Shown one piece after another: positions 16,091 through 50,700 of a DNA stretch of 64,000 nucleotides. Position numbers and translations under genes: made by a program. The notes under the pieces were generated by a model that saw only the letters and a program-made list of their open reading frames with translations, had not been told where the DNA came from and made no database searches. Within the stretch, counting starts at the first letter, position 1; the number at the start of each line of letters is the position of its first letter. Source of the stretch: Lytechinus variegatus (taxonomy: Eukaryota; Echinodermata; Echinoidea; Temnopleuroida; Toxopneustidae); contig NC_054746.1 in NCBI RefSeq assembly GCF_018143015.1, positions 23,016,464 to 23,080,463 of the forward strand, read 5' to 3'.

Positions 16091-16542
16091 TTGAATAAGG
16101 AGCCCTATTATATAGTCAGCTCGGAGCCCCGATAGGAGCTGCTGTTATGTTTTCTTTCGCTCTACAACCAAGGAGATATCTCCTATACAACCCAGTACAA
16201 GTGCTTCTGACGACGCCACGCGGGCGTGCGTTCTTTGTCCTGGCCTGGATAACCTTTAACCCCCCTTATCGTCAACAGTACCCGAGCTGTATATACCGTC
16301 TAGATGTTCACCGTTTCGTTTGCGACTAAGGAGTGCGATTTGTATGCAAGTCTAGATCTAATGTGATCAACAATGTTTCTAAGATTTCCTGTGAACATCT
16401 AAGAGAAATATTTAGGAAATAAGACCTTAATAAGAAGCTACTGACTAAAACGGTCTCCCTATCATAACTCCAGACTAGAGACCTATTGTAGCATCTTGAA
16501 TTCACATGCTGTGTTTACATGTAGAAAGAGGACATAATTATC

Positions 16543-16986
16543 ATGGGACTCGTTCACTACGTCGCTGTTCTGGTCGGGTTTTTATTCATCTTCGCAGGTC
16601 TCCTGAAGCTCACACCGATCGAGCTTGGCAATGGATTTAGCCAGTCAGAGATGAAAGCGATGTTCAAACGTTATCTCTCCGTCCTTCCTGTACACCACAT
16701 CTTCGGAGTGACGATCACGACGACCATTTACAGGTCGGCTGTCGGATTTGCCGAGACTGTATTCGGGAGCATGCTTGCATTCGGACGCACGTTTTGGAGG
16801 GTGACTGGCGCTTTTTATCTTCTTATTATCATGATTGGAGCATTCCTGACGCATCAGAAGATTGGTGATCCCATCGCAATGGCTTCTCCTCCGTTGTTCC
16901 TTGGTATTGTACTCTTGATTATTCTGGTAAATAGACGTGATCTAAATACCACCTATACAAGGACTGTCAAGACGAAAAGTGACTGA
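16543..16986 (+). CDS. TMEM35-like: TMEM35 (NACHO)-like membrane protein, copy 1 (147 aa, intronless)
   Basis: Four-span DoxX-like protein of the TMEM35 family. In vertebrates TMEM35A/NACHO is an ER chaperone for nicotinic acetylcholine receptor assembly. Matching features, in order, are a first membrane segment followed by KLTP (GFLFIFAGLLKLTP), an amphipathic SEMKAMFKRYLSVLP, a second segment with YRSAVGFAETVFGSMLAFGR, a third segment, HQKIGDP (vertebrate HQLVGDP), and a fourth segment with a basic tail ending KTKSD. The whole ORF is in one exon. The start is the first Met, just ahead of the first membrane segment. A weak TATA-like TTATATAG lies near 16109-16116, about 430 bp upstream. It is paralogous to the gene at 20144. 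Confidence 0.85.
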   Translation: MGLVHYVAVLVGFLFIFAGLLKLTPIELGNGFSQSEMKAMFKRYLSVLPVHHIFGVTITTTIYRSAVGFAETVFGSMLAFGRTFWRVTGAFYLLIIMIGAFLTHQKIGDPIAMASPPLFLGIVLLIILVNRRDLNTTYTRTVKTKSD

Positions 16987-20066: not shown

Positions 20067-20143
20067 ATAAACAAATCATACGAGTGAGTCATTATCGACA
20101 CAGATAATTCTTCTTACTGCGTAGCTCCTGCAACAAAGTTACA

Positions 20144-20578
20144 ATGGCTACCAGTCACTATATCGCCTTCGTCTTCGGAGTGCTCTTCATACTCGCAGGG
20201 CTCGTCAAAGTCCTACCCCTCGACAAGGATCAGGTAGGACATGGACTTCCTGAAATGTATGATGGATTCGAACAATTCATAAAAGTTTTGCCACTGAGGG
20301 ACTTCTTAGGCATCAAGACTGCCACTATGTATATCTCACTGGTTGGTGCTGCAGAATTGCTGTTGGGAGCTCTACTTGCATTCGGGAGACCTGCTTACAG
20401 GGTGTTCGCTGCCGTGCCTCTTCTTGGCATCATGATTGGAGCCATCTACACACTCTTGATGGTAGGAGAACCCCCATCTCATACTATACCCGCCACTGTA
20501 TTTGGATCTGCTTTGATTTATATTTTGTTGAATCAAAGAGGACTCGATGTTGGGAATATCAAAACGAAGAGCAGTTAA
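20144..20578 (+). CDS. TMEM35-like: TMEM35 (NACHO)-like membrane protein, copy 2 (144 aa, intronless)
   Basis: Same family and layout as the gene at 16543. It has ATSHYIAFVFGVLFILAGL then VKVLPLD, a PEMYDGFEQFIKVLPL helix, a second segment with ISLVGAAELLLGALLAFGRP, a third segment, GEPPSHT where copy 1 has GDP, and a fourth segment with a tail ending IKTKSS. Both copies share HY.A...G.LFI.AGL.K at the start and KTKS at the end, so they are duplicates, but they differ at most other positions and are not recent. The start is the first Met, with A at -3. Like copy 1 it has no coding intron. The likely role is ER chaperone or assembly factor for membrane receptors, inferred from the family. Confidence 0.85.
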   Translation: MATSHYIAFVFGVLFILAGLVKVLPLDKDQVGHGLPEMYDGFEQFIKVLPLRDFLGIKTATMYISLVGAAELLLGALLAFGRPAYRVFAAVPLLGIMIGAIYTLLMVGEPPSHTIPATVFGSALIYILLNQRGLDVGNIKTKSS

Positions 20579-29351: not shown

Positions 29352-32300
29352 CTAATGAAAGAAATATAGACATAGTAATGATTAATATGTGAATAAAAAA
29401 ACTCTTGAAACAAATCTGACAAGAAAGAAAATTACTTTTGTATTAGAAAAGAATCATTTAATTTGTTTTTATTATCAATAGCATTTGAAACAAATTTGTA
29501 TGAGTTGGAGCAGGAATTTACATATCTATGTAACTTCAACATATAGGGAAGTATTCTGTTGCCATTCAAACTCAACAAAGGCTAATATGTTTATTGTTAT
29601 CAGACATACACAATAAAATAGGTTTCCTTTGATAAATTGTGTAATACCTGTGGTAAGATCTGACTGACTCCCCATTCATCGTATGGATAATATTGCCTTG
29701 CTTCAAATATATCAATAATGCAACTGCTGACAAAATCAAATGTTTCCAATATATATATATTCTTCAATGTAGCGAAATAATTTTTACTGGGGGAATGAGG
29801 TCTGGGTTGTTTGGATATGAAGCATAATACATTGTTTAGTGCAAATACTGCAAATATTATGTAACAGTCAAGGGGCTCTTATGTTAACTTTACCATCCAA
29901 TGGTAACTACCATGGTAACAGTTTGCAACAGCCAATCAAAAATAAGGATTCCATAGGAGTTATCATTAGATGACAAAGTTACCATAATAATATATTTTCT
30001 ATATTACATGGTCCAGGGGCCGTATTCTGAGGTCATTTTATCTTTAAAATATTTTATTTTATCTCTTAAAATGAAATTGGTATTCTGAGATGACATTTTA
30101 TCTCTGAGATAAAATTTTCAATTTTATCTTGCGTATAAATTTTATCTTGCGTAACAATAGATGATACGCAACAGAACAGTGCTTGCGTAGACATACCCAT
30201 CGCGTATCTTGGTATTGCAACGCGGATGATGTGCTTGCGCTCATGTTACTTTGAGGAAAAAAATAAACTTAAAAGAGGGTAGGGGCTATTTTATCTCCGC
30301 GACGTTGATTTCACCAATATTTCTAGGTGAATTAACCCCAAATTTTGACATGAAAATGAAGAAAAAATATATATTTATTGAGAATAACACCTTAACGTTA
30401 TTCCTATACAATCAGAAAGTATTTCATAGGATATATCTTGACTAATGTCTTTGAAATGATGCTTGAAAAGATGCGATGGAGACTTCGAAAAAAGATGAGA
30501 GTATTGTCCTTTTTGTTAAAAAGAAATCTCTGTAAAGACGCGCAAGCGTATAGTGCAAGCGTATTTTAAGTCAATAAATTGACGCAATCTGTCCCCTTTG
30601 ACACACCTCCTAGCGGAATGGATTTCAATTGGTTGAGTGACACGAGAGAGCTATAAAAGCGCGTTTCTAATTGGATATTGATTAAAAAGTAGGTGTGTCT
30701 TACAGAGATAAAATGAAGATAAAATTGTTCTCAGAATACCAATTCGGAGAGATTTTAAGGGTATTTTATCTCACTGATTTTAACGGAGATAAAATATTTT
30801 ATTTTATCTGAGATAAAATGGATCTCAGAATACCACCCCAGGTGACTAAAATTAGGGAGTCAAGAAAGTGCATTTAATGGGAAAATCAACAAATCAAGAC
30901 AAAACACTATTAATGTTTTAATATTAAATATATAAAAGATATCAATTAAACAACTAACAGAAAGATTTAGGACTAGAGTGTTATCAAGAATGGAAGATTT
31001 AGTAAAATCTATATGGCCTATACCGTGAACGCCAGTCCAACTCAAAATAAGGTAAAAATCAGGTACCTGCTACATTCAGATATACAATCAAATTTACAAA
31101 CAATTTAAACTTTTTGTCCCCAATATAATATAGCTTTACAGTTACGATTAAGAGTAACGTTACAATGCCCAGATGTTAGATGTATCAGTTCTGATGATAC
31201 TGAAAGAAACAAACTATCTGAAAGTGAGACTGAGAATGTATTTTTTGACCAATAAAGTACAAAATTTGAATTCTATTAAACATAAACATAGTTCCATAAA
31301 TTTTGTATCATTTTTTTTATTCATGTTAAATCAAGTAAAATGTTAATCTAATCCAAGTTTTTATGTAAGTGCATTTCAGAATAGGACAAATATAGTTGGA
31401 CCAACCGTATATACCAGACAATCTGAAGGAAAAAATGTAAAAAGGAAAATGTCCCAAATCAATAAATTAATGTGACCAAAAAGGGAAGGGATGCTTTTCT
31501 AAAACTGTTACCACATATATTTGTCAAATAAGAAGCATGCAAGGAGAAATTGAGAATGAGATTAGATATAATATTCAAACTAGAAGGAAAAAAAAGACCC
31601 TTAAGATGCCATATTTTTCCCTAAGGAAACAAAATATTCACAAAATAAGTCTTGTAATAGTTGAGGGTGTGATTTGGGACAGGATTATATGACAGTGCAC
31701 ATAATTATCAACAGGGTGAAACACTAATCAAATTATCTTCAAACCACATAAAATAAAATTTATAGGGGGTGGAATAGCTGTGTTTAATATGTGTTTTTCT
31801 CTTCAATTTTGTCAACTTGGGTGGAAGGGAGAAAGGAAGAATAAGTGAAAAAATAAAATCATGCTATGAAATCAATTTGAGTCAGAGGGAAAGATATAGG
31901 AAGAAAAGGGAATATCAATAAAGATATACCTGTACTTATTTTTAGAAGAGTGGAAATAAAATCAATATATTAGCTGAAATAATAAAATAATGTTTACCTC
32001 TGGGAGTAACTGTAAAGAAATAGATGATGCAACAAAATAATGAATGATTTCATGAATGAATGATCAATATTGTGGCAAGATTTAAAAAAGTGGATGTAAC
32101 TGAGTCATTAAAGAGCAACAATAATAAATAATAAAGGAAAATAATCAAGTCTATAAAAAAAGAAGTTTAAAATTTAATAGTAAAATTAAAGAAAATATAG
32201 CTAATTCTCACATTACTGGGGCCTGTTGCATAAAACTTTTTACCTGAGAAATCTCAGGTATTTTTTACCTGAGTTTTTGCCCTGTGTTAAAGTCAATGGC

Positions 32301-35300
32301 AGAAATCAGACTAACCTTAGTTTTCAGTTTTTACCGGAGTTTTCTCAGGTAAAAAGTTTTATGCAACAGGCTGCTGGTCTTCTTAACTGCATATAAGAAT
32401 TCAAATTTTCTAAGAAACCAATCATTTTAATTGGTAGCACATGCATGTTAGAAATATGATTTCTAAAATGGAGATTGTGATATAGTATATCCCTTCATCT
32501 GCAAAAATAAAATAAAGAATTTTTCAAACTGTTGGATATATATATATTGTGAATATGAAAAAAAAATATGGCTGATAATAAAATATAATTATGCATTTCT
32601 GCAGGAAGCAGCGAATAAGCAACTGATTCCAAATTTGAAATCAATTGCAAAATATAAGATTGACTTTGGTTTCCAAAATACCAATGCAAGTAATTTTTTC
32701 AGTGGACCCTATCAATATCACTTACATGTAGGTACATTAGCTTTTCATTCAGTTTATATTCAAAAGCATGATTGTGACCTTGTTTTATAGGCTAACAATT
32801 GGTAACACCAATACATTTTACACGTTCATAGAGATGATCAATTTCAACCATATTTTCGGTGGTCATCCGAAACTTTTGTGGTTGAGAGTTTCCCTGTACA
32901 AAAACACCATAGGGGATACAGCAACCCTAACCACGATGTCAATGCGTGCGATCAGTCAAAACATAGTATCGCTTTTTCACATGCAAAGTCAACGCAGAGC
33001 CGATACAACGGTTTGACTGACCGCACATTTGCATATTAAGTAAGCGCAGCTAATGTTTGATTTACTACAGTGCACGTTTACTATGGGATTGTGCATTTTA
33101 TCAACAATTTGCATGGCATCGCTGTTAAAATCTCAAAATAACTCAGAAACTAAAATAAATTGCTGCCTAGAAATTTAGTTATTTTGGGGGACCAAAATTG
33201 ACTAATACCACAATTCGGATGAACGCCGATGATATGTATGTCTTGACTGTGGGCAAAGGGGTCATATGTTCCACTTTTTTGAGGACACACCCAAGTATAC
33301 GTCATCATATCTGTTACCTGCAGCTTGTGGAGTACAGTCCTCTGGTACATCAGACAAACATCCAGATCCAGTCACAAATATAATATCTTGATCATCAGGT
33401 GTGTATTCACCATCGGATGTAGGTGCTATTGACATTGTAATCTATTCAAGATGAAATATGCATAAATTGAGATGTTTTAATTTGTTAATTGGCATAAATA
33501 TCCAAAAAACAAAATCTCTATATAATGCAATTCCTTAATAACAAACTTCCATCAACACTAATGAGAATATTATTAATATTTTACGTTCCAAATAAAAGAC
33601 CATTTGTTTATAGTTCAAATTAAGCCACTCGGGGATTGAATATTATTGCGCATTATCTTCATGCACAACCTGAAATCTACTTCAAATACCTCTTTTGGAA
33701 CTTTGAAAAAACACTGTTTTATTCTGCTTTTATTCAATGGAACCTTTATCATATGATAGGTATATAATCTCATCGCCTATAAAACCATTCAATGATGTGA
33801 ATCCTTGCTATCCTCTGGTGAATAAAATAAATTACTTGTGATTACCTTTGTTGGAGATGTGAGATCTGAATTTGCTGTACTTGATATATTGAGTATTGGT
33901 GGTAATACCGGTGTCTTCCTGGTGGTGGTGATGCGGTAGATAGTGCTCTCATCTGAGGTTGTTGGTATCGGTGATCCATAGATGTAATTCTCTGGATTCT
34001 GGAGTTCACCTACATTCCCGCTGAGTACGATGCGTGGGTCATCTGACGCTGCTATATCAAGCACTCTCATGTCATTGTATGATAGACCCGACATCATGCC
34101 TTCAAACTGAGATGAGGAAGGCGCTCTTCTTCTCCTCTTCCGTTGGCTTTCACTGATATCACCACGTCCACCAAGGTTTATCATCGCCTGGTCATCAAAG
34201 AATGTAGACTGCTTGCCTGTCAAATAATGGATTAATCAATTCATTATTTTTTTGAACCACCAGGGAAAATTTGTTTGTGAAATTTCTTGTAGAAATTTTG
34301 TTAGTAAAAATATGGAGAGTATCATGAAGAACCAAATAAATAATTTAGACCAGGAAGTTTCTGATGTGTTTATTTCATTGTGATTATTACACCCATCCAT
34401 ACAAATTTTCTGCATAGCAATTTACATTTATGTAACCTATGTGAAAAAAGGGTCTAGAACTTAAATCAAAACAACTGTCTAAACCATAGTATGATGTTAC
34501 CATCCAGCATTTTGCAGGTTTATTTCTTCTTTCTCATCTCAAAATACTAGTTTCAAGAGAGCATAAGCAACATGGCAGTAACAAGAACAACATGGTGTTA
34601 TTACTCTCATTGTATATTCTACCTTTCGGTGTCTTGTAAACTCGAGCATACTGATCTATCTGCAGAGAAGCGTTGGCCCCGGTCCTTGAGAAATGAATCA
34701 CGTGATATGCCCCATCGTTGATGCGATTGATGTCATCACTGATCATGTGGTCAGCTGATCCAAAGTTGTACATGGTCCAGAGATAACCATTTACCTTAAA
34801 AGAGTAAGTGATTAGAACACGATTGTATCAATTATTCTACAAATAGTGTATATCAGTCATAGCAGTGATATTCATAACCATGCTTGCACCGTTTATATGG
34901 TATATGTAAATCAGTACAACATACTCCTTAAGAACAACATTATTTTAATGTTACCAGTGACCAATTTTTAAGTTTTAACAGTACTATTACCAATTGCACA
35001 AAAAACCTCCTAGTGATTTCCATTACATTACAACTTTGGATTGATTCCGAATTTGTAGGATATTTCAATTCATACCCCCAAAAAATATTATCTTGAATTT
35101 GTCTGTAACTTTCTGGTACTGAATGAAAAAAAAAGATACAATTAATTTTTTAGAAGATTAATTTATTACTCACATAATGAACAATCAAAAGAAATCTGCA
35201 TAACTAAACACTGCCTTTAATTCCACAAATAAGTTTCAAATTCAATTTGTTAATTTTAGTGTATTGCGAATTTTTGATATTTTCAAGCGGTTCATACTAT

Positions 35301-38300: not shown

Positions 38301-41300
38301 AAATCAGACTTAGATGTGATCACAGAAGTACCTCTTGTGTTGGTTTACTTAGTTCAGTAATGACACAGTGGCATCGGTGGGATACATATTCATTATAAGT
38401 GACATTCTCAACCGGACAAAACACAACTTGCAATGGTTCGGATACTAGTGACGTAAATTAAAATGAAGTATCGAGTCAGTGATTTTGTAACGTAGAAATC
38501 TGGTCTTCTTTTATACCTCAAGAGCAAAATATGTGAATACCAACACCAGATAGTGCTATACATAATAGCAGTGATCAGAGTCATTTCTAACAACAAAAGT
38601 GACATTGGATTGGTTTTCAGGGGGAGGGAAAGGAAAATGCTTCTGCAATAATTTGTTTTACTCTAAAAATGGGCAATGGGAATATTATACATACCTTCAC
38701 AGCCACGTTTCAGGTTGGACTTATCCATCTCGATGCTGATAGCTGAGTCCTCTAGATCCTGTTTCCTGCCATTGACTTCTAGAGATGCAAAGCATCCCTG
38801 GAAGCCTACCCTGGCCTCCACTCCACTCTGTAGGTCCTCGTACATATCTGTAGCGACTCCACCAACGTAAAGATTCTCGGTCAGGTCTAGATGTCTTGCC
38901 TTGGATGACGGCTGAGCAATACTCATTGAGTTATCCACCTGCAGGACATGTCGACCTACGCTGTTCTTTGAGATGGACACCTCGTGCCATTTGTTGTCGT
39001 TGAGCTTGTGGGGTGTGTTGGCATGGATCTTGACAGGTCCGGCCCCCATGTTGAAGGCATACTGTATCTGTCCTGCCACCAGTCCAACTGAGATGAAGTC
39101 AGTGCGGCCACCACTGCTGTAGAGCAGCAGACCATTGGGCTCTGTCGTCTTGAAGTGGAAGAAAAGCGTCAGGGCTGGATACGAGTCTGGTGTCTCCAGC
39201 TGAACAAAGACTTCTTTCGTTCTGAAGGTGAATGGGTTGACCTTTGGCCTCTGGCTCATCTTCTCACCAAAGGTTGCATTTAATCTGATGTAATCAAGTT
39301 CTCGTGCCTTGGCCATGTCAAAGTAAGGTTGGTTGTTGTACAGGAACTGCTCCATATGACCAACAAAGTTGACAGGGTTATCTGGCATGCTGTCACGATT
39401 GGCAGCCCCTCCAACCTCGATGTAATGATAATCAAGGATACCACTCTGGAAATTCTCACTCACTGTGTGATCAAAATGTAGAGTTAATGTCACCAATAGG
39501 AAAACAAACGATAAGCATCGAAAAAAGAGTTATGAAACTGTATGAGTGTGTGCTTGTGTGCTACTATTGTCATATTGGTTAATTTTTGCTTGTGCTTCAC
39601 TATCATGTATTACTACGACAATTTTTACAACTCCAAGTGCCGATAAATCAAAATGATATGATTTCAATTATGACAGCCTCATGTGACTACTGAAATTGTG
39701 AGGTGTTTGAAGTGAGCTAACAAAGAGAGAAAATGATGTTGAATGTTATGCATGCACAATGTTTGGCGAGCATGTTTAATGATTGAGAGATTATGGCAAG
39801 TGCGTACACAAAGAACAATGTTATTGTCACATTTATTGACATAATTATGTAGTTATGATAGGATGCATTGTAAAATGTATATCTTTAAAGCAAAAAATAA
39901 ATTGTCTTCTTTTTCAAGGACAAAGCTTCATAACATAATGCTTTTGAATGGCCAATGTTTTATCGGCTTTCAAAAATGCGAGTAGAATGTCAAAAGGCAA
40001 AAGGAATTTCTTCCTAAAAGAACATAACAGCGATAAAAGAACAATTAGAACAGACAAGAAATATCATAGTATAAGAGAACAAGTAATTGAGAGAAAGCAA
40101 GTAGCATTACAGGAAATCGGAGACAGAAAGTTAGTGGAAAAGAGAGTGAAATAGAAATAGTAGAGAGAGAGAAAAGAGAGAGAAAATAAACATAAGAAAT
40201 GAGGAGAGACAACAAAAAGTGATGAGAGATGAGAAATGGCAAAGAAGATGGGGGAAAATGAAGAGTCATTCCAGAAATAGGGATAGAGGCTTGAGGAAGC
40301 CCTAAGATGCATATAGCAAGGCAAAGATAAAGAATGGTATCATGAAAGACAGGCATACAGTCGTCCAGCAGAAAAACCCATACTCACCTCCATACGTTAT
40401 GTTAAATGCTGGGAGAAGAGAAGTTTGCCGTGACACATACACGGAAGAGATTTAGAGCGTGCCAAGAGGGTTCAAAGTTCATAGGTCAGAAAAGGATGTG
40501 TGGAGGTGAAAAGTGAGTGGAAGATTCCAAGATGTGAGAAGAGATTTTGTTTGAAGATAAAGAGGTCAAAGGTCAAGTAAGGTCATGATGAAGTAGCAGG
40601 CAGGAATGCATGGTGGAAAGAGAAAACATGAGTGCAAATATGAGAGAGAAAAAATGTTGGTGTAAGAATAAGGTTCCTTCTGTCAGGTCAAAGGTCACCC
40701 TGAATGGATGAACTTTACACCTTTCCGCTTTTAAAATATTCTCTTGTATTAATGATACAGTTTTAAAAACCAATATCTTGAAACTAATAACATAACTTTG
40801 TAACTAAAACGGAATTAGTAAGCTCCCCTTTTCATGAAGTCTTCCATACTATGATCAAGAACTTTCTCAACAATGAGTAATGATCCTTGGATTTTGTTGT
40901 ATTTTTGTTTAGTTGATGTGCAGACTAACCATAAGCCATCACTCATGGAGAAAATGATATCCAAACGATGAAATGAATTTTTCAACCTATGTACTCATGT
41001 AATTGATTTTAAGTAAAGTACAGGTGGAATTCACTTTTTGTATCAATAGAAGCCATTACCATTAACCAAGCCATTAACCTATTTGAAATGGTTAATTTGG
41101 AAAAAAAATGTCATGGAAGTCATAGTCAGCAACATATTCTTGAGTCTATGTGTATGTTCAAAATATGAAAACTTCTGTCTTTTTAATAAAAAAAAAAACC
41201 CAAAATGTCTTTTAAAAATAATTCAAAGTTTTTTAAAGAGATTCAGGCTTTATTTCCCAAATTATCGAAAAGAAAAACTTCAATTACCAACTGAGGTTTA

Positions 41301-41710
41301 CCATAGGTATCAGTTGTCATGGAATAAACCATGTCTCATATTTCCAAAATAATGTTTGTAATTCATAATGCATTCAGACAATAGGAGTTTCATTAAACTA
41401 TTTTTTTAAAGGGTATTTGTGTGATGAAGGTAAGATTGAGACCTCTTTTATTCAAGATAGCATGTCTATTGACATAGGATGTCTATAGTACTTCCAGAGA
41501 CAGAAAAGGGAAGATTAGATGCAACTTTATAATTAAAAAAAAATTATATCTGTCATAAACAGACCTTTATTTGTCTAAATAAATGAGTAACCAAGAATAA
41601 ACTTTGGAAAAAAACCCTTCCATTTATTCTATTTGCAATGGTTGCTTCACAATGGTAGAAAAAGATGGCCCAGTCATAATATTCATCCTAGCATTCAAGT
41701 GGGCTCTTTA

Positions 41711-41748
<38 letters not shown>

Positions 41749-44700
41749 TATAATACTGAATTCATAATCATAATAATTTATTATAGACTAATTTTGATAA
41801 AATTCAAAGTGAGCCTCAATTTCAAAAGTTCTCCATATATTTCAATTTCAAACTTTGCATCAAAACATAAGACCATCAATGTCATTGTGTGCAATGGATG
41901 ATGACTCATATATATATTTTTATTAAACATCAGTATATCAGAGGCCATTCCATGACATAAATGATTCTGGAACAAGGAATTCAACCGTGTATCTTTCTTT
42001 ATTATTTACTTAGCATTGAGGTGACCTGACACAAGGAACCATAGCATAAACAAGAAAAATGATATCTAGCATATTCCAGCTTATCTTTTCAGAAAGAAAT
42101 GTAGTAAGAATTAGAAAAGAGGTTGAAAGTTGGTTTCTCAACCATTCTATATAAAAGTTCAAGAAGGAAGCAGCTTTTCAATGTTTTGGAAGGCAGCATC
42201 CATTCTGGTTGAATCGAAGAAAAGAGGAAAATTTTACAGAAATTCTTTTCAAGAAAGATACATCTACAAATAAAACTTCTTTCCCCACTTAATTTTGTCT
42301 TTCCCTATCAATTTCTTCATTTCCCACTTATACCTAATAAAAAGGCTCATTTCTAACTTGTATTGCACTAAATAGGATATGGAATTTAGATCTTCCTGTT
42401 TGAACATTCAAAGTCCTCTTCATAAAAAAATCTTAAATAACAACATTGTAATTTACAATGAGTTAATATTGATATATTTATTTGTTTTCAAATCAAAATA
42501 AAAACAAAAACTAGTTTCAATATTTCCAGAATTAAGTGACACAATATAGTCAATTGAATTTCAAAGTTAGCATGCTAATACTATATCAACAAAGTTGAAT
42601 ATATATACACAATATTAGACATCAATTGTCCAGGCTGTGTTAGTTGTGTTAGTAGAATAATAATAGTAAGTTTGAATAAGCATGCTTCATGCCCTGTTCA
42701 AATTGATTATATCCGTCAAAATATGAAATTACAGTTCAAAAGATTAATAAGTCACAAACAGAGAAAGAAGAGAATGCAAACAGCATACGCTCACTACAGA
42801 TGCAAAATGATGTTTTAATTGCAAGCGTTGATCCATCTATATGTGCCATGCAAGGTTCATGCTTGAAAATCATGCAGAGATTTTGTGCTGTGTTGTTATC
42901 TAATGTGAGAATTGTGATTAAGGTGCACTTGTGTCGGTTTGTGTTATTCATTCTCTTTAAAAAAGAATAAAACAGTCTGAAATATAACTCAGACTGCGTG
43001 TAAAATTCAAAATAAAACTTGGAAATCACTGATCACATTTGATCTGTTCGTGACTCGACATTCCTCGTACGTACTCAGAGAAGAAATAAAAATTGAAGGA
43101 AAGGTCAAAATTGTCAGAATATCATGCCTCATCAGTAAATTAATTGAACAAAGAAGAAACTTCATTCCAAATAGTTCCAAGCAGACTATCAAAGTCTTTG
43201 AGATTGTTCTTTAAATGATCTCACCATCAGGACGAGGAGGCACATTATCTGTTTTAAAGATTTATCATTGTTTTAGCAATGGGAGAAAAACAAAAAATAA
43301 ACATGATATGACACCTTGACAAAACTTAATTTACATTATTTATCTTTACCAAATCTACCTTGAAGCAAGAAAGCTCAAAATCTTTTATCTTTATTTTTTT
43401 AATTTTCAAATTTCAATATCGATTCATGAAAATAAAGGTGCTAAAGTCAACACCTGACCACTAATTAATCCAAATATATAAGAAAACATATAACAAATAA
43501 TATCTTTAGAAATAAGCATTCCATTCTGAAAGAGGAAAACATTAAACCTAACAAAAATCCCTTCAATTTAATTGTCAATTTTCTCCTTTCTGATTAAGAA
43601 ACAAATGCAACAGGCCTACTAATTCCAAAGAGAGGCAGAGGGACAAGAATACTAAGATATATATAGAAAATATATAATTAGATGTGAAAGCATTTTCAGA
43701 TTAATAACATGTTAATATTCTTTTTTGTGTGCTCTCATTCCTGCTTCTCAGTGGGAGTAAAGATAAATAAACTAGATTGTTAGTATTTGAACAAATTCAT
43801 TTACATATAAATGTTAGTACATCGACATAAAGAAACATAAGCTTTTAACTGAAGTGTTTAATCAAATGAAAACAAAAATGTTTCAATGTTGATTGCTCAG
43901 TTCCATCAAACAAATAATGACATCATAAGAAACTGCAGTTTAAATCAATCATATACAATAAATTTAACTTGAACCCAAGTATTTATTGAATAAAGTCTTG
44001 AAATAAAAGCAAACTTAATACTGAACACACAAAACATTAATGAGCATATTTTGTAATGACATATTTTGTTTCAGGTCATATGTATCTTTGTATTTATTGG
44101 CAGCCAACTGAGCAATGAATTCATTTTTTTTACGGTTCAAAATGTTTATGATTGAATTGAGAAAATATATGAAAAGCAAACACTGAGAAAAAGTAATTCG
44201 GAATGCATTGGGGAACCACTACATGTACAGGGAGTCTATAGATACATGACTAACATGACATGATGCATATGGGACTATCGGGATAAAACTTCTGATATAT
44301 ATATATGTAAAGTGATTAAATAACAGAACAGATGATATTGGAAACACACAGGAATAATGATTACAATCATATAAAAAGACGATTGTCCCATTATGTATAT
44401 ATATTTGATGATGGCATGAAAGAAGAAAACTTTATATCTGGTAAAAAGAAATTGACAGTTAATGATATATTTACTATATTGGAAAAAAAGAAACAAAATG
44501 GCAAATGTATGAGGGTGAAAGAGAAGATAGATAGGGATATGACTAAGAGATTATGCATATGAAAGAAGAACCTGTAAAGCATTTAGATGAGCCATAATAA
44601 AATAGTTATATTCATCTTTCACTTTTGGATCATGCATAAGACAATCTATCCAAGTATATCAATTGACAATGAGAAATAACCATGAGATGGTTTATTGACT

Positions 44701-47700
44701 TGTCACATTTGTTGGATGGAAGACTTTCCTAATAGTAACTTTTGGTACGCTGATGATATAAAGTTCCTCTTTGTTAGTGTTTAAACAGAATTTTCTGTTC
44801 AATCAAACTAGACCATCTTGTAGAGGAATATATAGAATTAAATAATTCAAGAAATTTTTAGATGTACTATATGAGTACTTTCTATATAAGGTACTAGAAA
44901 TTTGATGGAAACAAAGGGTTAAGGAAGATTCAGGCTTAATACAACATTATAATGTAATTCATAATCACAATCATGTTTTCTCATTTTGCTCTGAATTCCT
45001 ACTTTAACTTGTGTACAATATATGATACCAATTTGTGACTGTTATTTATTAAGAATTAAAATCTTGTATCAGAACTACCTGTCAACTACTAAATTTTAAT
45101 TATATGAAAAAAAACCCTCAAAATGTTTGTTGAAAGAAAGAGAAGAGTAAAGAAAAGCTCACAAAGACAGATATATAAATAACTGAGATCATCATTCAGT
45201 AGCAGGTATAATCACATGGATATTTACAGAAACATTCTCTTTTTGTCATCCTTATAATCCATTATACTGAAATGAATGAAATGTCTTGAATAATGATAAA
45301 AAACACACAATATATTTGTATATGAGAGAGAGAGAGAATCCAGCCAAATTGAATGCATATCATAGCATTTTGTACAAATGTAGGAGTTTCCAGATAAACA
45401 ATACATAACTAGAAATGGATACAATATAAGTACAGTGCAGCACAGAAAGTGGCCCTTACCTTCGGCTCTGTCAGTATTATCCACAGTGACCATAAGACGA
45501 TCATCCCGCCGCTGGACATGAACAGCATGCCATCGATTATCATCCAGCCCGTGTCCTGCAGTGATGACCGTCTGACCAATACCATAGTTGGTGATCACCC
45601 GTATCAATCCTTGCTTCAGCTCCACCATCAGCATATCAATCACGTTATCAGAGGAAGTAGCCACCAGGAGGCCGTCTGGGAAGCGAGTGCGGAACCTGAG
45701 GAAGATGTCTTCAACCTTGCTGCGCGAGTTTGCCGATACTGTGATGCGCATGTACTGGTTACCATTGAAGGACAGTCGTGCTACCTCTGTAAAGAAGAAG
45801 AGATTCAACAAAGAGAGAATGGTCGTAATGGTCATATCACCAGTGTCTTACAGAATCGAAAATAAACCCTGTTCAAAAATCAAAACACTTTTGCCTAAAA
45901 TTAATGCATTGTGGGATTTTCTTAATCTACACTAAAATCAAAGAGCTTCTTGTGTCAATAAATGATGAAGAAAATCAAAGTACATGTTTTATCCATTGAC
46001 TCTCTGACCTCGATGTGAGCAAGAACATAATTCTAAACTGATGAAAGCCTCCACTTCCAGTGGAAAATGTATAAGATTTTCCTTGCCTGAATAATTGAAT
46101 CAATTAAAATTCTGTATCAGATTTTACTCTTATAATTCCTGTGACTTTCATCTCTAATTCCAACATGGAAATAAAAGGTTCCCCAATTTCTCTACTGAAG
46201 TGAATAAATTCTTTATCCCTTCGGTTGAACACATGACAGTCGTCCACGGCATTTCCCTGGTTAAACTATAAACGTAGCACCACCTACCAATAAAACCTCA
46301 TCAATAATGCAAAGGGGCAATCAGTTGCTTGACTGCACATTAGGTCTTCAATCATAATTGTAATGGTTATATCAGGACACATAAAACCCCTGACCAGAAT
46401 TGTAATTGAAATCATGAAATGATTAACCCTTTGCCTGTGGGAGTAGCGTGGTGCTTTGAATTCCAAGGGTTAAGAATAGAATCATGGAATCAATGCAAGA
46501 ACGCCCTCAACAGAATAGCAGCTCATATTCAATATTTCCTGTTGAAATATTCACGTACTTGGCACAATGCGCAAAGGAGTTTCTACAAAATAGTGCAATA
46601 GAAATAACAAAATAATCCAAAATACAAACTAAAAAATTGAAGTTTCTATCAGATGAAGTCTTATTTCCCTTTAAGGAGAACAAATTTTAAAGACTTGCAG
46701 AAATAGTGACATATAGATGATAAAAAACATATACAAATTGAAGTGTAATAGAAAGATGAACTGGCATAGGTATGAGTAGCAAACCTATTGTTCAAGGGGG
46801 GATGGATGGATAAATTTGTAATTTTCTAACTTCTAAAGGATGCTATTTCAAGATGCATGCACATTCACGATAGGTAAGAAATCTGTAATTCTATCCTACA
46901 TTTCTACAATCAACACAATCATCTCTTTTCTGTTTCATTATCCATTTCAATTATTATTAATATGTAATGAAATATCTTTAGTCCTCCAAACTTTTACCCG
47001 TGTTAGTACCGCACTCACCTCCTTCCTCGGTGAACACTGATGAAAAGCAGACAGAGCAAGTAACAGAGCAGGTTAGGATTTTTCGTGAGAAAGTGATGCG
47101 GCAATGGAGGGGAAGATTGTTGAGAGGATGATCGGAGAGGAGGAGGAGGATTCAAATTTTTGGAAGAGTAGGAGCAAGCAGAGAATTGTTAGAAGATTTT
47201 ATTTCAGCAAATTTTGGATGGACGGTAGTGACTAAAAGGAGATTCTATTCCTAGTACTTTACTGGAAGATCTCAAAAACAAAATGAGAGAAATCTAAGGA
47301 CAGATAGACAGAAGGAGAAGAAATAATTTTTTCCATAGGATTCTAGGTGCCTTGATTAGTTAATGAACTAGTAACAAAGGTCAATGTAATATTTTTTTTT
47401 AGTTACCAAATATTTCATAGTAGCATTGGAGATAATATTTAAGAAATTTGTTCAAAGGGCCATTTTCTTAACTAAAAGGAGATCTTCCAGTAAAATATCT
47501 ACCAGATAAGCAGAGAGGAGAAACAGTTATGCTGTTAGATGAGAGAGAGGTTAGATTTCACAGACGAGGCCTGCAAAAGATTAGTCAAGATGCACAAACT
47601 AAGAAGATAATGTCTCAAAAGGTACATATGTGAACAGCTGAACACACTGTGTTAGTCACAAAACACACAATAATGTCTTTCCAACTGACTTTGTTTCATG

Positions 47701-50700
47701 TAATTTAATTCCAAGTCAAGATCATTTTGCATCATCAATGTTCCTTCTTTTGAACATAAACACATATCATGATAAGAGAAAGATTGAGCTGTGCCAATTT
47801 CTTAAAAGCCATCTATATTTTGATGGGGCAATCTATTTCATGAATAGTTCTTTGATTGTCTCAAAACGATATCAAAATGATCCATTTATTCCCATTTCCC
47901 TTATTTTATGGAATTTAGGAATATCGCATTTTGACATCCATACAAAAATCAAGCATATAACTTCATGTTCCATGAATAATGCCCATTTCACATATAAGCT
48001 CATGTATGCTTAAATGAGAGTTATGTTAAGTGAATGAGCAGTATCAGAAATGGAAATGGAAACAAAATATATTAGTTGGAAAGTTAGTTGGAAAGCATGC
48101 AAGCAGTTCTTGTTAGAAGACAGATGAGAAATGTCAATGGAAAGGGTGTCATCATTTGCCTAAGGCTTGCAATTTCAATAACATTTTCAGATTAAAATAA
48201 CAATGGATTCTTATATCTGCAAATACAGCCCTCAGGAAGAAAATGCAATTAATTGAATTTAATTGACAGTTTATAAAGATAAATATCTTATCACTCACAC
48301 GGTGATGAGATAATGGATACAGTCAGTTCACATCCAAAATACAGCATTTAATTTTGGTGGTTTCTTTAAAAAGGGGAACTACAAAAACATTTCGACCAAT
48401 TTCATTGACTTTATATTCAATCAAACTGTCAAATTGTGCATATAAGCTTTTATTAGATTACAAATTGATCTTACAAAATCACAACAGGCACATAATATGA
48501 CACCCTTTGCTAACAACATACTAATCTAAGTAGAAATCACCAACTTATCAACACTTATCCCCTTTGAGCAGTTCTCAGTTTATACTAAAACCAATACTTT
48601 GATGTGCATTTGTTAAGCATGCAAGTGCTATTGCTCAAAGGATTAAGATAGAGAACAGATAAAGAAAATGCAATTTGGAGTGAAAGTTGGTGCATCTATG
48701 CAATTTTGAGAATCCAAATGATGGCATATGCTTTTAGGTTATAAGTAAATTTTGGATGAATAATTTCAAAGTACTTGCTGCACTTTTATATAGGCCTAAT
48801 GAATATTTAAAAAAATAAATTTTACACCAGCTGTTTTTCTTCTTAAATATAAAAAACACTTCTTTATGAGCATTTTATTCATTATGATCTTTTCTTTATT
48901 TCTCCTGCATAAATATAATGTTCAATTTCTTTTTTCTTTAATCATGTTTTAGACTTGGCTTCTTGGATATAAGTAACCTAGGTACATTTTCCTTCAGTGG
49001 CCATATCAAATGAATCATGAGGTGGGTTAATAGCAGTGATCTTCAAGAAACTTTGCAAAACACTACAAACTTCATTCTACATGCCATGCAAAGATGTTCT
49101 GTCCTGTTAACAAACATCCATGGTAACAAACTCAGTGCAAAAAATGTTAACTTTCATATTGCAAAAAGGAAAATATATGAAAATATCAATGCAAGAGCAG
49201 AGCAAGCAAGAAACCTTTGATAAAACAAGGATTTTCTGTCATCAATATTGTCAGAGTCTATGGCTAGATGCAAGGATAGAGTTTCTTATAAAGGATTCCC
49301 TCCAATGTGCAGTTTCAGTATTGCTATTTCAGTGTTGTTAATTTTATAGGTGGAACAATTAATGTGTTTTGAAAAAAGGAATCAATTTGATTTAATCATC
49401 CATATAGATTAACTTGATTTTTTTTATAAATGAATGTTTGAAAGAAAAAAAAAGATATTTAAACATAAAGTAGTTTGAGGAATATCATAAGTTTGATTAA
49501 AAAAGGAAAGAGCCTTACACATGAGACTTCATTTGCATTTTGTAGCTGCAAATAAGCTGATGTAAAGTACATGTGAGAGTGGCATATTCCGGATACAAGG
49601 CAAGTTTGCCAGATCTAGATGTATATCTTTCAGTGGTTTTGAATAAGACTTTATCCAACTTATCAGCACACAGAATCTCCCTTTCTAATAAGAACGTTTC
49701 TGGGTCTAGACAGATTTTGCACCTCAGTAACAAACACTCCCAGACTGCTAATAAAAGCTACAGGCGGTGCGTTTAAGAGTGATGCAAGTGAGAAACATGC
49801 CAGCCAAAGTGAATGGTGGAATGTACTTGGTTGCTATGGTAACCTACCTTCGTCACATGTCTTTCCAGTATAGCCAGTTATACGACAATCACAGATGAAC
49901 CTGTTCCAGCCCTCCGTGCAAGTTCCTTCATGATTACAGGGTGTGCTAGAGCACTGCCCTTCTTCTTCCCTACATCATCAAAAGATCAGAAAGACAAGGT
50001 TATAAGATATTCAACAAAAATTCAAGAGAAGACACCTATCCCTTTATCATTATCATTTTCCTGGTTGCAAATGCACTATTTCTGAGCATTTCAAATGATA
50101 TTTTGAAAAAATGAGGGCCAAGGTATTTGCTCACCACCATTTAAATTCCTTTTCTTTTAATTATCACACAATAGCAAAAGAAAACAAACACTAAAATGTT
50201 CTAAGTGCCAGTAAACAGAAATAATAGGGACTGCTACTCTTCAAACAAAATCACAATGAACAATCAAAGCACATGAAATAAAGTTTATTGTCCCCCAAAA
50301 TGGAAGGGAAAAAAAACGATGGATCATTGAATATATTTGAGACAAGATGTGGTAGCTTCTCACACTGTTCAACATGAATTTACAATAATCCACCTTTTTA
50401 CACATTACAACTCTGAAATATAATAGTCATGGGTCCTGGTGCAGAGAGTTGCAATTACCCCCAAACTCTAAATCCAATTGGACATGCATTTGATTTTGTA
50501 GTTTATGTAAAACCTACACTCTTCTACAGCAGACTATACAAGATTTGTATCAGTTCCAAGATGTAAGTATAGACCTACCGACAGTAGACTCCAATGTCGT
50601 TCCCATTAGATTGTTCAATAGCATAAGTTGGAAGATCAATAGTTGTCCCTTGTAGGACCAGGTTCTTGAGGCAGCCCACATAACCCCTCCGTAGTGCCCC

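Follow-up and report, generated by a model that had tools for sequence, protein, structure and literature searches.

A neurexin gene lies on the minus strand of a 64,000-nucleotide (nt) stretch of the genome of the sea urchin Lytechinus variegatus (contig NC_054746.1, positions 23,016,464 to 23,080,463), referred to here as the window. When the window is taken together with 100 kb of neighboring sequence, 13 exons running from LNS1 to LNS6 can be spliced without a stop. The spliced product contains six laminin G stretches recognized by Pfam (PF02210), corresponding to the six LNS domains of an alpha-neurexin. Pieces of human neurexin-1, used as tblastn queries, matched LNS1-EGF1, LNS2-LNS3-EGF2 and LNS4-LNS5-EGF3-LNS6 with their order kept, in agreement with three LNS-EGF-LNS repeats, and a single EGF stretch of the spliced product was above the Pfam threshold. 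A 76-residue LNS4 query found a single place in the genome (869.6-Mb assembly, 33 contigs), whose mitochondrial COX1 can be read through with the echinoderm mitochondrial code. The sequence analyses described below indicate that this gene contains one well-formed microexon at minimum, and probably two, which could insert short peptides within and next to a binding domain, at places for which no splice switch is known in vertebrates. The constitutive exons around LNS4 and the candidate microexons (ME1 to ME3) are the following, with the strengths of the splice sites in bits.

49848-49969, minus strand: EGF2 exon, ending in phase 1 (...GKTCDE G/)
47019-47036, minus strand: ME3, candidate 18-nt microexon encoding VFTEEG, in the EGF2-LNS4 linker; acceptor 8.9, donor 12.5
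45460-45786, minus strand: constitutive exon, first half of LNS4 (EVARLSF...VTVDNTDRAE); 3′ border GAAG/gtaagg
43225-43248, minus strand: ME1, candidate 24-nt microexon encoding DNVPPRPD (aaaacag/...GATG/gtgaga); acceptor -1.9 (very weak), donor 8.9
40388-40408, minus strand: ME2, putative 21-nt microexon encoding AFNITYG (tctcccag/...GGAG/gtgagt); acceptor 11.9, donor 12.5
38695-39462, minus strand: constitutive exon, remaining part of LNS4 and LNS5; 5′ border cacacag/TGAG

ME1 and ME2 both lie in the phase-1 intron of 5997 nt that splits LNS4 between 45460 and 39462. They had been proposed in an earlier note on this stretch, and their borders, their lengths of 24 and 21 nt, their phase and the N-glycosylation sequon N-I-T in the ME2 peptide are as described there. 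The suggestion that zero, one or both might be used is also compatible with the frame, which is open in phase 1 for all four combinations (none, ME1, ME2, and ME1 with ME2). ME3 is absent from that note and is a stronger candidate than ME1. All three elements (24, 21 and 18 nt) are symmetric and open, and they fall within the size range of 3 to 27 nt given for neural microexons of the eMIC type (PMC7935315).

In an alignment with LNS4 of mammalian neurexin-1 (3qcw), the urchin domain devoid of inserts runs without a gap across the junction, and thus the inserts would be pure additions to an LNS4 of standard, full length. Alignment of the LNS domains places the insertion site in the inter-strand loop that, in LNS6, carries splice site 4, as the note had put it, with the two insertion points about 5 residues apart; we take this loop to lie between strands β10 and β11. 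The further claim that the site differs from vertebrate splice site 3 is borne out by the alignments, in which the place of the latter falls within the unbroken exon 45786-45460. In fact, the insertion site matches none of the six canonical vertebrate neurexin splice positions. The regions of ME1 and ME2 are both single-copy in the genome, which rules out that they represent repeats.

The splice sites were scored against chance by scanning both strands of 164 kb for AG-[3 to 30 nt]-GT elements that are symmetric and open in phase 1 (n = 7048). We used a generic metazoan splice-site matrix and a second matrix derived from 12 introns of the same gene. Under the generic matrix, ME2 ranked first of the 7048 elements, with 24.3 bits, and ME3 ranked second. 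ME2 was the sole element to reach its score in 328 kb of strand, and dinucleotide shuffling of the 5997-nt intron generated no element matching it in 300 attempts. The gene's own matrix penalizes GTG donors because 11 of its 12 training donors are GTA; with this matrix ME3 ranked 7th, ME2 16th and ME1 262nd. When elements of any frame preceded by at least 100 AG-free bases were compared using the same matrix (n = 162), ME3 and ME2, both of them open, came out on top, and with at least 60 AG-free bases (n = 857) ME3 was sixth and ME2 was outside the best six.

The earlier note treated ME1 and ME2 as equals. However, unlike ME2, whose sites are strong, ME1 does not exceed chance in splice-site strength. 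Under the generic matrix it totals 7.0 bits, a score surpassed by three of the 67 elements of its intron, and elements equaling it occur about 4.5 times per shuffled intron and 9.8 times per 6 kb of real sequence. Since shuffled and real sequences both yield many elements as good, the splice sites of ME1 carry no weight by themselves.

The other feature that distinguishes ME2 and ME3 is the presence of long tracts devoid of AG in their vicinity.

47039-47231, minus strand: AG-free tract ahead of ME3, 193 nt; 3.5 AG expected from composition, none seen
40411-40676, minus strand: AG-free, pyrimidine-rich tract ahead of ME2, 266 nt; 4.7 AG expected from composition, none seen
40016-40289, minus strand: AG-free, CU-rich tract behind ME2, 274 nt, partly simple sequence, with an orphan acceptor-like site at its end (40013)

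Within the window, no other minus-strand run is as long as the two tracts around ME2, which rank second and third for this strand when all 164 kb are considered. AG-free zones span 26 to 102 nt at the 12 constitutive acceptors of the gene, compared with 266 nt for ME2 and 193 nt for ME3; ME1, with 64 nt, is ordinary for the gene. A long AG exclusion zone, which is typical of eMIC-type microexons, is thus found at ME2 and ME3. Among the 12 longest AG-free runs of the minus strand, only those that end at ME2 and ME3 are followed by a donor of at least 12 bits within 160 nt; for the others, the best donor over the same distance reaches no more than 7.9 bits, or no donor exceeds 4 bits. In the 164 kb, the longest minus-strand run is located in a neurexin intron (L003 8800-9116, minus strand; 317 nt, 83% pyrimidine), and no donor exceeds 4 bits in the 160 nt that follow it. 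Downstream of ME2, two good acceptor-like sites at 40013 and 39716 (minus strand) follow 274 and 164 AG-free bases, respectively; they are orphan sites, as no donor scores more than 4 bits over the next 160 nt.

We also looked at short motifs in the flanks of the microexons. CU motifs of the PTB type number 14 upstream of ME2, relative to a background mean of 1.8, and 29 downstream, relative to 2.5, and YCAY motifs number 12 upstream, relative to 4.3. The last 40 nt before ME3 contain CTAAC and three copies of TGC, and about 30 nt ahead of ME1 a single TGC overlaps CTAAAA.

Taken together, these features make it reasonably likely that ME2 is a real 21-nt cassette exon and that ME3 is a very probable second one, both being alternative and mainly neural, with ME1 as a possible third. 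A number of observations weigh against this interpretation. The ranks of ME3 and ME2 on the gene's own matrix place them below elements that are not known exons, and AG-free tracts at 40013, 39716 and 109181 end in acceptors without a donor. CU motifs also exceed the background of 1.8 in the flanks of the constitutive LNS4a exon, where they number 8 upstream and 10 downstream, and therefore they are not special to ME2. Moreover, CU tracts can be simple sequence, as illustrated by a weak tandem array at 40137-40186. ME2 has no UGC in the final 50 nt before its 3′ splice site. A weak 3′ splice site, as expected for an eMIC-type exon, is found for ME1 alone (-1.9 bits), and not for ME2 (11.9 bits) or ME3 (8.9 bits); the strong splice sites of the latter two would equally fit constitutive use, the 3′ sites of fly eMIC exons being described as very weak (PMC8797185). 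Finally, a genome search with the SRRM_C profile (PF15230) returned two matches, neither of them over the cut-off (best E value of 0.144), and revealed no convincing SRRM/eMIC gene, although such a search reads the genome exon by exon and can miss exon-split genes.

It is possible, if somewhat doubtful, that the full set including ME1 is used, as the earlier note had it, and that the LNS4 loop would be extended by 0, 7, 8 or 15 residues. ME1 is open and in phase, and its weak 3′ site together with the upstream TGC and CTAAAA recalls the exons of the fly eMIC type (PMC8797185). Furthermore, a joint filter retaining open elements whose donor and AG-free zone are each at least as good as those of ME1 was passed by ME1, ME2 and ME3 alone out of 7048. 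However, the thresholds of this filter were taken from ME1 after the fact, and in the frame-shifting control 5 of 16571 elements passed, which corresponds to about 2 expected per 7048. The ordinary AG-free zone of ME1 and its rank of 262nd on the gene's own matrix also argue against its use. Thus, ME1 may be a real exon, but we lean slightly toward doubt. An alternative acceptor for the ME1 donor, at 43358, was the only other one past the thresholds and was rejected, as it would yield a frame-shifting exon of 134 nt.

ME2 and ME3 might alternatively be real but constitutive, in which case this lineage would have a longer loop and a longer linker and no switch. The strength of the sites is in keeping with this explanation, given that the donors of ME2 and ME3 (12.5 bits each) surpass the best constitutive donor of the gene (11.5 bits) and that no more than one constitutive acceptor (12.4 bits) outscores the acceptor of ME2 (11.9 bits). 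Nevertheless, we consider it unlikely, because the AG-free zones of ME2 (266 nt) and ME3 (193 nt) are outside the range of the 12 constitutive acceptors and because the frame is intact in the absence of the exons, with an LNS4 of standard length. Full inclusion is also rare for very short exons without help, which counts against constitutive use. Lastly, that the elements are chance look-alikes of splice sites in a pyrimidine-rich intron and are never spliced in would agree with the chance-level sites of ME1, with the several long AG-free tracts of the gene that end at orphan acceptors and with the 16th rank of ME2 on the gene's own matrix, but it is improbable, as ME2 and ME3 head both the generic-matrix list and, with either matrix, the elements preceded by 100 or more AG-free bases, are both open, symmetric and in the correct phase, and were not equaled in the case of ME2 by any of the 300 shuffles.

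The best reading is thus that of neural alternative microexons that would modulate LNS4 by bulk and by a glycan, i.e., a known kind of switch at a new position. ME2 and ME3 are presumably too short for ordinary exon definition, and their inclusion may rely on the long pyrimidine tracts and on a distant branch point. PTBP1 is reported to repress many of the neural microexons outside neurons, and the microexons of flies and mammals are described as having extended AG exclusion zones and strong branch points, accompanied by UGC motifs and UCUC tracts (PMC8797185). Repression of the PTBP1 type would suit ME2 because of its CU-rich flanks and its long AG-free zone, and PTB-like binding to the pyrimidine tracts may similarly repress both ME2 and ME3 outside neurons.

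Inclusion of ME2 would add 7 residues to the LNS4 loop, with an N-glycan at the predicted sequon. The enlarged loop might weaken or block the binding of partners that touch this rim of LNS4 or, alternatively, it might alter packing on the neighboring domain or on a neuroligin dimer, as for the splice site 4 insert in LNS6. Inserts at splice sites 2 and 4 have opposite effects on the ligand affinities of LNS2 and neurexin-1 beta (PMC6856630). In models reported in a study of neurexin-2, insert A of neuroligin contacts LNS4 and its splice site 3 insert (PMC3622022), and mammalian LNS4 co-precipitates with neurexophilin-4 (PMC6763262), a partner whose family invertebrates are said to lack (PMC12665717). 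As for ME3, its inclusion would lengthen the hinge between EGF2 and LNS4 by 6 residues (VFTEEG), in a manner comparable to splice site 1 in the EGF1-LNS2 linker.

We scanned the 12 introns of the gene for other alternative exons of up to 150 nt with good sites, and none that was convincing was found at the positions of splice sites 1, 2 or 4. The splice site 1 intron contains an open 18-nt element at 98166 that scores 17.4, the 7th best value among the 7048 elements; its AG-free zone, at 31 nt, is ordinary. Three elements of the splice site 2 intron are past the site thresholds, and they were discarded because each is either not open or frame-shifting. At the place of splice site 4, the gene has an intron with the following features.

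34217-34622, minus strand: phase-1 intron of LNS6, corresponding in position to vertebrate splice site 4 (YKTPK G/KQSTFF), 406 nt

No element of this intron is past the site thresholds, and none of its 12 open AG-GT stretches of 15 to 150 nt, which were left unscored, looks good by eye. We tentatively propose that the splicing code of this neurexin may have been rebuilt around LNS4 rather than LNS6, such that two or three microexons would set how long the hinge is, how large the loop is and whether it is glycosylated, while splice site 4 would have no alternative exon.

A few residues past the splice site 4 loop, LNS6 contains a long basic stretch (34010-34216, minus strand; GRGDISESQRKRRRRAPSSSQF) where human neurexin has the short turn GGKEQGQPF. 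Between the LNS6 and transmembrane exons, a 12-nt open element resembling a microexon (TTACTCCCAGAG, 31998-32009, minus strand) encodes VTPR in phase 1. It has an AG-free zone of 88 nt and outscores both ME2 and ME3 on the gene's own matrix, and it lies in the stalk region, where vertebrate splice site 5 is located. Farther downstream, the open reading frame 29442-28795, which is not joined to the exon model, contains a hydrophobic stretch recognized by eye and ends in ...PPEYATKEWYV, which is similar to the KEYYV of vertebrates; it is a candidate for the transmembrane stretch and the C-terminal PDZ ligand of an alpha-neurexin. Elsewhere in the window, two open frames about 3 kb apart on the plus strand (16525-16986 and 20108-20578) are similar by eye, hydrophobic and membrane-protein-like, and perhaps represent a tandem gene pair.

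If the LNS4 microexons of this echinoderm are real, splicing would have gained access to this loop of the fold in a second domain, and LNS4 would be indicated as a regulated binding surface. A simple question follows, namely whether a loop of seven residues with a glycan changes binding by LNS4. A literature search yielded nothing on echinoderm neurexin splicing or on an insert in this LNS4 loop in the titles and abstract openings among the matches listed.

The closest known counterpart of the ME1/ME2 site is splice site 4 of LNS6, which is in the same loop of the fold, where the urchin gene also has a phase-1 intron, and whose insert is likewise an addition that could gate ligands. However, that insert comprises 30 residues (PMC13373219), compared with 7 or 8 in LNS4 here; the LNS4 insertion point is about 5 residues closer to the preceding strand, ME2 has a sequon, and the urchin gene is without a convincing splice site 4 exon. 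Splice site 3 shares with ME1 and ME2 its location in LNS4 and a similar insert size (9 extra residues in the alignment), but it is in a different loop, which corresponds to an unbroken exon in the urchin gene. Of the other canonical sites, splice site 2 is in LNS2 (PMC6856630) and splice site 6 is between L5 and L6 (PMC13212319). Splice site 1 is in the linker between EGF1 and LNS2 (PMC3084293), and hence ME3 occupies the corresponding linker, EGF2-LNS4, of the next repeat. It differs in size, with 19 inserted residues in the construct described in that work and a single 18-nt exon in the case of ME3. Insert B of neuroligin-1 offers another parallel, since it too is a short, alternatively spliced addition to a loop of a synaptic adhesion protein and involves an N-linked sugar. 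This 9-residue insert was modeled with a bulky N-linked sugar, and alpha-neurexin binds only the insert-free forms (PMC3084293). In contrast with ME2, whose glycan is predicted from the sequon only, insert B is on the partner protein.

Lineage-specific splicing of neurexin is not new in itself, since honeybee neurexin I possesses its own set of 12 splice sites (PMC2570956). Like the urchin gene, it is an invertebrate neurexin with splice variants in LNS domains that are specific to its lineage, but the text consulted names no microexon in this LNS4 loop. ME2 and ME3 also resemble the exons of the neural microexon program (eMIC) in that they are very short and in frame, with long AG exclusion zones and CU tracts (PMC8797185), and they differ from them by their strong 3′ splice sites and, for ME2, by the lack of a nearby UGC. 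In such programs, alternative exons are described as recurring in orthologous genes at different positions (PMC8797185).

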